NCBI RefSeq assembly: GCF_004135625.1
Contig: NZ_SDPV01000002.1
Location: 1,240,001-1,304,000, forward strand
Source: Pelagerythrobacter rhizovicinus
GTDB taxonomy: Bacteria; Pseudomonadota; Alphaproteobacteria; Sphingomonadales; Sphingomonadaceae
Length of the DNA: 64,000 bases
Direction of reading: 5' to 3'
Shown here: positions 58,004-59,838 of the stretch, one piece after another
Layout: each line of letters starts with the position of its first letter
How positions within the stretch are numbered: the first letter of the stretch is position 1
Made by a program: the position numbers and the translations under genes
The notes under the pieces: model-generated
What the model was told of the DNA's origin: nothing
Database searches by the model: none
The model's input: only the letters and a program-made list of their open reading frames with translations

Positions 58004-58018
58004 CTAACGATTCCTTAA
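58004..58018. promoter_or_regulatory. CtrA-like box upstream of the PilZ-HTH gene
   Basis: CTAA, seven bases, TTAA resembles the TTAA-N7-TTAA CtrA consensus with one mismatch. It is 40 bases before the PilZ-HTH ATG. Single matches to this motif occur by chance, so the confidence is limited; a similar TTAA-N7-ATAA lies at 58772-58786 before the GGDEF gene. Confidence 0.4.
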
Positions 58019-58057
58019 CCGCAAGCGCCGACTCCTTGAGCGAAAGGAGCGGCACAT

Positions 58058-58708
58058 ATGGTAATCGCGGCACATCTCGAACGCAGCGATCAGGCAAGGC
58101 GAGACGCGCAGCGCCTGACGTTGCGCTTCGAAACCGTCGGCGGGCGCGAATCGGGCGAGGTTCTCCCGGTCCGGGTGCACAACGCCTCGCGCACCGGGCT
58201 GCTACTCGAGTGCGACGCCGAACTCTCCATTGACGAGGGGATCGACATCGACTTCCCGCACGCCGGAGTGACGCCCGCCCGCGTCGTCTGGGCGAGCGGC
58301 ACGCTCTACGGCTGCCGTTTCGACGAGCCGATCTCTCCCGGCACGCTCGCCGCGGCGGAGCTGCGCAGCGACGCGGGCCTGAAGCTGGAGCGCGTGCACG
58401 CATCGGCGCCTGAATCCTTCGGCAGCCGGCTGCAGCGTCTGCGCAAGGAACGCGGGCTCACGCTCGCACAGCTCGGCGAACGGCTCGACGTCAGCAAGCC
58501 GACGGTCTGGGCCTGGGAGAAGGGCAAGGCGCGCCCGATCGAGAGCCGGATCGCCGCGATCGCCGATGTGCTGGGCGTGTCCGAGCAGGAGTTGGCGGAC
58601 GTACACGACAGCGCGGAGGCCCGCGAAGTGCTCGCACATAGCCGCGAGGTCATCGCCCGCGCCTTCGGAACCGAGCCGGCTAAGATCAGGATCATGATCG
58701 AATTGTAA
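58058..58708 (+). CDS. PilZ-HTH fusion: predicted c-di-GMP-responsive transcription regulator
   Basis: A 216-residue fusion. Residues 12 to about 105 are a PilZ domain keeping both nucleotide-binding motifs: R15-x-x-x-R19 (RRDAQRL) and N42-x-S-x-x-G47 (VHNASRTGLLLE). Residues 121-180 are an XRE-type helix-turn-helix: SRLQRLRKERGLTLAQLGER, LDVSKPTVWAWEKGKARPIE. A charged C-terminal tail follows. c-di-GMP binding and DNA binding are predicted from motifs. The ATG at 58058 has an AAAGGAG ribosome-binding site. The next gene encodes a PAS-GGDEF protein 218 bp downstream. The intervening region holds a perfect palindrome. Fusions of PilZ to HTH are not common in my experience. Confidence 0.85.
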   Translation: MVIAAHLERSDQARRDAQRLTLRFETVGGRESGEVLPVRVHNASRTGLLLECDAELSIDEGIDIDFPHAGVTPARVVWASGTLYGCRFDEPISPGTLAAAELRSDAGLKLERVHASAPESFGSRLQRLRKERGLTLAQLGERLDVSKPTVWAWEKGKARPIESRIAAIADVLGVSEQELADVHDSAEAREVLAHSREVIARAFGTEPAKIRIMIEL

Positions 58709-58807
58709 GACCAGTCTTTGCAAAACTTTGTCGCAGTACGTGAAATGACTCCCGAAAATTCATCGGCTTGGTTAATATCTGCATAAGACGATTCGCAAGT
58801 CAGTTAA

Positions 58808-58826
58808 GTTATACAACACGTATAAC
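58808..58826. promoter_or_regulatory. GTTATAC-N5-GTATAAC palindrome
   Basis: A perfect seven-base inverted repeat with a five-base spacer, in the AT-rich leader of the GGDEF gene, 101 bases before its ATG and 100 bases after the PilZ-HTH stop. Size and symmetry fit a dimeric transcription factor. The adjacent PilZ-HTH protein is a natural candidate to bind it (inference). Confidence 0.65.
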
Positions 58827-58851
58827 GGTAATTGTGGAGTGCAATTCATAC

Positions 58852-58867
58852 CGGGAGTTCTCTCCCG
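58852..58867 (+). promoter_or_regulatory. Short CGGGAG/CTCCCG hairpin in the GGDEF-gene leader
   Basis: A six-base perfect stem with a TTCT loop at 58852-58867, about 60 bases before the GGDEF ATG. It is too short for a strong terminator and has only ATATTGTTCTTC after it. It may be part of the mRNA leader or a weak attenuator. Confidence 0.4.
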
Positions 58868-58926
58868 ATATTGTTCTTCATCATTTGTGAATCGGCGTAG
58901 GCGGGCAAAGGTCGGGGCGTAATCGC

Positions 58927-59838
58927 ATGGTGGAAGATTTCACCCTTCATGAAGGGGCGGCATTGTATGACTTGTTGGCGGAGGGCGGGCGCAACATCGT
59001 CCTGAAGGTCGATCGTGCGGGTTATGTGGTTCATGCCTCGGCGGCCATCGGGCGGCTCGGTCTCGCCATTCCCGACATGCTGATCGCACCGCATCTGGCC
59101 GACCTCGCCGAGCCGGCGCAGGCCGAGAAGCTGCGCGCCTTTCTCGAGGTCGTCATGCGCGGAGGATCGGCAACCGGCTGGTTCGAATTCGCCGCGCACA
59201 TGGCGGACGGAAGCACGAACTGGTTCACGCTTCAGCTCCGTCCCTTGCTCGATATGGACGGGCGGGCCAGCGGGGCGATCGGCATCATGCGGTCGCTCGA
59301 GGAACGGCGAGAGCTCGAGGAGCGGCTGTTCACCGCCACGGTCACAGATCCGCTCACCGGCCTTGCCAACCGCCGTGCGTTCCAGATGATGCTGCGCCAC
59401 CTCGTCCGCCGGCGGCAGGGCGGCACCCTCGCGCTGTTCGACATCGACCATTTTCGCGCGATCAACCTGCGCCACGGCGCGAGCGCCGGCGACCGCGTGC
59501 TCGTCGCTTTCGCCGATTTCCTGCGCAGCACGCTGCGGCACGAGCACATCGTGGCCCGGATCGGCGGCGAGAGCTTCGGTGTCCTCCTGCCCGACCACGA
59601 CCTTGCCGCCGCAAGGAGCACCGTCGCGGCGGTGCTCGCGGCGCTCGCGGAGGCGTCGCCGCCGCGCCCTTCGGACGAGCCGCGCCTGTCGGCCAGCGTC
59701 GGACTGGCTGCGCTGAATCTGTCCGCCGACGACACGCTTCGCCGTGCGGACCTTGCACTGCTCGCCGCCAAAGGGCGTGGACGGGGCAGGATCGAAGCGG
59801 ACGAGGATCTGCCGGACGGGGGCCGTCGGCGCGCGTGA
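58927..59838 (+). CDS. PAS-GGDEF protein with degenerate signature (GGESF)
   Basis: A 303-residue cytoplasmic protein. Residues 15 to about 125 form a PAS-like sensor (IVLKVDRAGYVVHASAAIGR, WFEFAAHMADGSTNWFTLQL). A coiled linker leads to a GGDEF domain starting DPLTGLANRR (141-150), with the metal-binding Asp172 (LFDIDHFRAIN), but the signature reads GGESF (213-217) instead of GG(D/E)EF. The fourth position is normally a catalytic Glu, so diguanylate cyclase activity is doubtful, and no RxxD inhibitory site is visible. It may be a GTP or c-di-GMP sensor. It follows the PilZ-HTH gene on the same strand. Confidence 0.85.
   Translation: MVEDFTLHEGAALYDLLAEGGRNIVLKVDRAGYVVHASAAIGRLGLAIPDMLIAPHLADLAEPAQAEKLRAFLEVVMRGGSATGWFEFAAHMADGSTNWFTLQLRPLLDMDGRASGAIGIMRSLEERRELEERLFTATVTDPLTGLANRRAFQMMLRHLVRRRQGGTLALFDIDHFRAINLRHGASAGDRVLVAFADFLRSTLRHEHIVARIGGESFGVLLPDHDLAAARSTVAAVLAALAEASPPRPSDEPRLSASVGLAALNLSADDTLRRADLALLAAKGRGRGRIEADEDLPDGGRRRA

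Follow-up and report, generated by a model that had tools for sequence, protein, structure and literature searches.

We describe a compact locus in which a PilZ-HTH regulator and the adjacent gene for a PAS-GGDEF protein appear to form a dedicated c-di-GMP-responsive module, with the regulator probably (we estimate about 60%) controlling the gene of what is predicted to be a dead cyclase. Namely, the PilZ half of the 216-residue regulator would bind c-di-GMP, while its Cro/CI-type HTH half, as a dimer or a pair of dimers, would occupy an operator-like dyad before the PAS-GGDEF gene. Ligand on the PilZ half would alter the occupancy of the dyad by the HTH and so set PAS-GGDEF transcription, and the product would be a PAS-sensing degenerate GGDEF protein that makes no c-di-GMP and serves as a non-catalytic scaffold or receptor. 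The window (the whole 64,000-nucleotide stretch analysed) comes from an Erythrobacteraceae genome whose nearest named relatives are Pelagerythrobacter and Altererythrobacter, with 88-92% identity in the PilZ-HTH protein, and the pair lies on the + strand between lysC and a purT-type gene (Table 1). A preliminary description of this DNA had given the two proteins, the PilZ and HTH domains, both PilZ motifs and the GGESF signature correctly, as judged by the ORF list and Pfam.

Table 1. Features of the PilZ-HTH / PAS-GGDEF locus, in window coordinates.
Feature	Position	Strand	Evidence
PilZ-HTH regulator gene, 216 aa	58058..58708	+	Pfam PilZ and HTH_31; full-length family relatives; AF2
PilZ domain (residues 14-96), RxxxR 15-19, NxSxxG 42-47	58097..58345	+	Pfam, homologue alignment
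XRE/Cro-CI HTH (residues 121-181), recognition helix SKPTVWAWE 146-154	58418..58600	+	Pfam, fold comparison
Conserved C-terminal tail (residues 186-216, ...IAxAxGTxPxKVRIMIEL)	58613..58705	+	Conservation; AF2 helix 186-203
CtrA-like box CTAACGATTCCTTAACC (CTAA-N7-TTAAC), PilZ-HTH gene promoter	58004..58020	+	EM motif
Conserved TGGTWAA element, upstream of dyad	58769..58775	+	Spacer comparison
GATTCG containing GANTC (CcrM-type methylation) site, just upstream of dyad	58790..58795	+	Spacer comparison
Operator-like dyad; window letters TCAG-TTAA-GTTA-TA-CAAC-ACGT-ATAAC	58800..58826	.	EM motif, genome scans
Perfect palindrome GTTATAC-AACAC-GTATAAC (GTTATAC-N5-GTATAAC), inside dyad	58808..58826	.	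Exact match
Terminator-like hairpin CGGGAGTTCTCTCCCG + T-rich tail, between dyad and start codon	58852..58867	+	Leader comparison
PAS-GGDEF gene, 303 aa, degenerate	58927..59838	+	Pfam, signature comparison, AF2
Degenerate signature GGESF (residues 213-217); inhibitory site RHEH instead of RxxD	59563..59577	+	Orthologue alignment

The regulator matched Pfam PilZ at residues 14-96 (4.1e-8) and HTH_31 at residues 121-181 (5.8e-16), and these two domains as well as HTH_3 all scored above the Pfam cut-off. Of the c-di-GMP receptor domains, PilZ is the best known, and RxxxR and [DN]xSxxG are its c-di-GMP-binding motifs. Among 100 unique PilZ-HTH sequences R19, S44 and G47 were invariant and residue 42 was Asn or Asp in every one, while a regular expression for RxxxR...[DN]xSxxG matched 104 of 108 homologues. 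Since the ligand motifs are kept in nearly every orthologue, the conservation of the PilZ domain favours ligand binding by the protein. Certain PilZ domains do not bind c-di-GMP, and the first Arg of RxxxR is displaced by one position in some orthologues, so that the domain might be merely structural or dimerising and the module an ordinary XRE autoregulatory pair; the invariant residues and the nearly universal motif argue against such a role, which we regard as quite unlikely.

In the AF2 model of the PilZ-HTH protein (mean pLDDT 85, pTM 0.47), a loose linker connects two confidently predicted domains. The strands of the PilZ half fit the PilZ barrel, with BcsA among the Foldseek matches, and the HTH fold was closest to the P22 c2 repressor (Z 12.8, rmsd 1.5, 67 residues aligned), with SinR also near. 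In keeping with an XRE/Cro-CI regulator, an inverted-repeat candidate operator lies near the neighbouring gene. The C-terminal tail, part of which AF2 predicted as a helix, ranks among the most conserved stretches of the protein. Full-length relatives were found in 28 of 149 sampled genomes of the family, about a fifth. Across 289 genomes of the class, full matches were confined to the window genome and one member of its family, and the full fusion was absent from the other sampled families, save for one HTH-only match. In a single lineage, in which the partner is inverted, another PilZ-like ORF (L052, 5653-6246) lies next to that partner and overlaps the PilZ-HTH gene at its end.

The 303-residue neighbour matched GGDEF at residues 139-287 (1.6e-30) and PAS_4 at residues 25-129 (2.6e-11), and its AF2 model (mean pLDDT 88) had PA0861 PAS-GGDEF-EAL as the closest solved structure. 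Its signature, GGESF, departs from the GG[DE]EF of active cyclases, and this degeneration is family-wide: none of 87 distinct orthologues had Glu at position 4 (Arg in 62, Ser in 12, Thr in 6, other residues in the rest), most had Met or Leu for the Asp of the GTP-site N-D pair, and more than half had lost the first Asp of the metal site. The other GGDEF proteins of the window genome, taken as a control, were intact, with GG[DE]EF in 10 of 10. With no Glu at position 4 in any orthologue and the signature preserved in those ten proteins, it is very probable that the neighbour has lost cyclase activity throughout the family. One might instead take it for a functional diguanylate cyclase whose signature is atypical, which would turn the module into a c-di-GMP feedback loop, in view of the good GGDEF fold and of the Glu at the third signature residue in 62 of 87 orthologues; yet position 4 is never acidic, the GTP and metal sites are eroded and the ten intact proteins speak against it, making this the most improbable of the readings considered here. 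The inhibitory site lies five residues ahead of the signature; 50 of 87 orthologues retain RxxD there, and the window protein has RHEH. Thus, of the earlier suggestion that the protein senses rather than makes c-di-GMP, the second half is very probable, whereas the window copy is without the usual sensing site.

Two loci carry proteins near the partner family but no PilZ-HTH gene (L197, 1471-3324; L198, 1465-3348). These are membrane proteins with a MASE1-looking N-terminus followed by PAS and GGERF with RxxD, from which the partner may have arisen or which may have branched off from it. Right before the partner start codon, at 58910-58926 in the window and at the equivalent place in most loci, a CCGGGGGCA-like stretch is conserved (CCGGGGCA in its Novosphingobium form); it seems to be conserved beyond the plain need for a Shine-Dalgarno sequence.

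The two genes are inherited together in this family, which has marine and soil members. A PAS-GGDEF gene lies directly downstream on the same strand in 75 of 80 named loci, which bears out the neighbourhood that the preliminary description had proposed to check; two of the remaining loci have it inverted (convergent), one is without it (L045) and two end at contig edges. The flanks are less well kept, with lysC in 27 loci and purT in only 17, so the pair outlives its surroundings. Distance matrices of the PilZ-HTH and partner proteins correlate at r=0.86, a value reached by none of 1000 permutations. A strong partner orthologue occurs in 19 of the 149 family genomes, 17 of which also have PilZ-HTH. 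The other two (G069, G138) carry a membrane-anchored, apparently MASE1-PAS-GGERF protein and no regulator, and therefore the degenerate domain does not strictly need it. In a test drawn from an unbiased family sample of homologues, the recognition helix SKPT[VI]WAWE was present in 16 of 16 homologues with the partner versus 2 of 11 without (Fisher p=1.2e-5, a value that ignores phylogeny), the two partnerless genomes that keep the helix being L013 and L017.

Tight co-inheritance of this kind could also mean that the partner acts directly on the PilZ-HTH protein, its PAS domain serving as sensor and its dead GGDEF domain binding or titrating the regulator in a feedback on its own gene, with c-di-GMP secondary. 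The presence of a PAS domain and the loss of RxxD in the window copy are in line with this somewhat unlikely scheme, but the PilZ ligand motifs kept in nearly all orthologues favour ligand binding. Regulation by the PilZ-HTH protein in response to c-di-GMP is the reading we prefer.

A candidate operator emerged from EM motif discovery on 78 de-replicated spacers, which yielded TTAGt-N3-GTTA-N2-TAAC-N4-CTAAC. The conserved dyad, TTAG-N4-GTTA-N2-TAAC-N4-CTAA, spans 26 bp in the neighbour's promoter and is equivalent to a GTTA(G)-N9-(C)TAAC inverted repeat present twice, the second overlapping the first at an offset of 9 bp; the dyad of the window has two mismatches to the consensus in its core. 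The perfect palindrome noticed earlier is present exactly as described, occurs once in the window and was not recovered in 100 shuffles even with 2 mismatches, and it corresponds to the right-hand one of the two overlapping repeats. As a conserved operator in its own right it was rejected, since the perfect form is limited to the window and its nearest relative (labels L008 and L038). What is conserved in homologous spacers is the larger dyad overlapping it. The operator link first proposed for the palindrome therefore stands for an inverted repeat in the spacer, in a different form and tied to the neighbour's promoter.

Because the dyad was trained on spacers, we relied on independent tests. 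In lineages with an inverted partner (L052; L089 and L023, one genome), which are outside the training set, the dyad fronts the inverted gene and not the spacer. As the dyad moves with the inverted gene, it belongs to the neighbour's promoter and not to the spacer as such. A locus at a contig end (L063 and L018) carries the dyad at the expected position of the partner promoter. When a PWM was run over the retrieved loci, all 10 of the 10 sites outside the training spacers fell at inverted-partner promoters or in contig-cut spacers. At the genome level, the core GTTANNTAACN4CTAAC with at most 1 mismatch gave 9 sites in 18 PilZ-HTH genomes, 7 of them at the partner promoter, and 0 sites in 18 genomes of the family that lack the full fusion. 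The full dyad with at most 2 mismatches gave 14 sites in 39 genomes, 13 at the partner promoter, including that of the inverted partner in G080. The dyad is thus nearly unique per genome. Autoregulation through the same dyad was rejected: a score above 8 was reached in 69 of 78 spacers but in 0 of 156 strand scans before PilZ-HTH genes. Given the conserved inverted-repeat site in the spacer, the dyad is well supported as a candidate operator in the partner promoter, and we infer from sequence that the PilZ-HTH protein is its binder, together with the c-di-GMP dependence, the sign of regulation, the input from CtrA and the job of the partner.

Two further elements adjoin the dyad in the neighbour's promoter: TGGTWAA, conserved upstream of it, and GANTC, found within 20 nt upstream in 36 of 69 spacers versus 6% of shuffled windows. 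On the side of the regulator, EM upstream of the PilZ-HTH genes returned gCTAACc..atCTTAACc, and 73 of 77 de-replicated regions scored above 8. This element, CTAACC-N4-CTTAACC (CTAA-N7-TTAAC), lies mostly 54-64 nt before the PilZ-HTH start codon and is one position off the canonical CtrA box TTAA-N7-TTAA(C), with C for T at the first base. We infer that CtrA may bind this box. Its conservation makes cell-cycle or motility control of the module probable. CtrA-like boxes had been assigned to both genes; the one before PilZ-HTH is conserved, while the neighbour has only the weaker TGGTWAA. As CTAAC is also the half-site of the dyad, the PilZ-HTH protein may in addition regulate itself through another arrangement of half-sites.

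These elements raise another possibility, namely that a different regulator binds the dyad (CtrA, GcrA with CcrM methylation, or an unrelated XRE or LuxR protein), that the PilZ-HTH protein acts elsewhere and that the adjacency of the genes reflects common cell-cycle control. TGGTWAA is a CtrA half-site in reverse, it adjoins the dyad together with GANTC, and a CtrA-like box precedes the PilZ-HTH gene. But the half-sites of the dyad are inverted and stepped by 9 bp, unlike those of a TTAA-N7-TTAA direct repeat, and a global regulator would need many sites, whereas the dyad is near-unique with no near match in family genomes lacking the fusion. The recognition helix of the PilZ-HTH protein, moreover, follows the presence of the partner. 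Occupancy by another regulator is unlikely in our view, and the PilZ-HTH protein remains the preferred binder.

In the leader of the partner gene, the hairpin CGGGAGTTCTCTCCCG with its T-rich tail is a possible terminator or attenuator. It recurs, with a changed stem sequence, only in the nearest relatives (L039, L040), and since it is confined to the nearest genus (3 of 69), a conserved terminator or attenuator in this leader was rejected. A sigma-70 promoter scan at the partner gene found none, and the position of the dyad therefore gives no indication of the sign of regulation.

Whole-genome pattern scans mostly returned the partner site, and other matches were at or near control rates, so a wider regulon was rejected. 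Two sites bear on the doubtful proposal that surface or envelope genes, too, are under the regulator's control. In the window genome (G000:C1:346909-346964), a dyad-like site with GGTTAA at nearly the correct spacing (31 nt versus 32 nt) precedes the gene for a secreted protein and a 2986-residue YadA-like ORF; in another genome (G002; L127, 1501-1519), a perfect core operator GTTAGTTAACTGAACTAAC lies directly before an L,D-transpeptidase (YkuD) gene. Against this, the spaced pattern has a chance rate of about 0.2 per genome (11 control matches in 50 genomes), and given these control rates both sites are unproven. A homologue of the first gene of the adhesin operon (the secreted protein) was not found in sister genomes, which leaves nothing to compare, and the adhesin was set aside as an unproven target. 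The adhesin itself is trimeric autotransporter-like (L133, 7901-16861); alongside it lie the gene for the secreted protein and, divergently oriented, a TetR gene.

A search of the open-access literature found no description of a PilZ-HTH, PilZ-XRE or similar fusion, in agreement with the earlier suggestion that it is possibly undescribed. The reviews consulted do not include a fusion of PilZ to a canonical HTH among their systems and name MrkH of Klebsiella pneumoniae as a PilZ factor with a non-HTH DNA-binding domain (PMC12564702, PMC10519070). Like the window protein, the transcription activator MrkH places a c-di-GMP-type PilZ domain in a DNA-binding regulator, but it has a non-HTH N-terminal domain and no classical HTH, whereas the window protein has a C-terminal HTH_31/HTH_3. 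BldD of Streptomyces shares the Cro/CI-type HTH, and its DNA binding is governed by c-di-GMP (PMC4151990), although it senses a c-di-GMP tetramer via its own C-terminal domain and not via PilZ. The P22 c2, SinR and DdrO repressors resemble the PilZ-HTH system in combining an HTH fold with an inverted-repeat operator, but they have no PilZ domain and their operator differs from the dyad. The neighbour, for its part, has lost the catalytic site as have PopA, PelD, SgmT and other degenerate-GGDEF receptors. Of these, PopA still has its RxxD and works within the CtrA pathway (PMC12564702). In contrast to receptors of this type, the window neighbour has RHEH where the RxxD of PopA and PelD would stand, carries PAS in place of REC, and has its gene next to that of a PilZ-HTH regulator, which apparently controls it.

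Tentatively, and with somewhat less confidence than in the module itself, the PilZ-HTH proteins might represent a new class of one-component c-di-GMP transcription factors that join PilZ to a canonical HTH, with the dead PAS-GGDEF partner as their main conserved target; in our sampling they are confined to the Sphingomonadaceae/Erythrobacteraceae group. Such a module would read out c-di-GMP on its own and be tied to the CtrA/CcrM cell-cycle circuit. With its operator predicted, one conserved target and numerous natural variants, the fusion makes a route from c-di-GMP to transcription in sphingomonads simple to test. The partner presents a clean, family-wide case of a GGDEF domain under selection after the loss of catalysis. 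If the proposed regulation is true, c-di-GMP would set how much is made of a catalytically inactive copy of the very enzyme that synthesises it.
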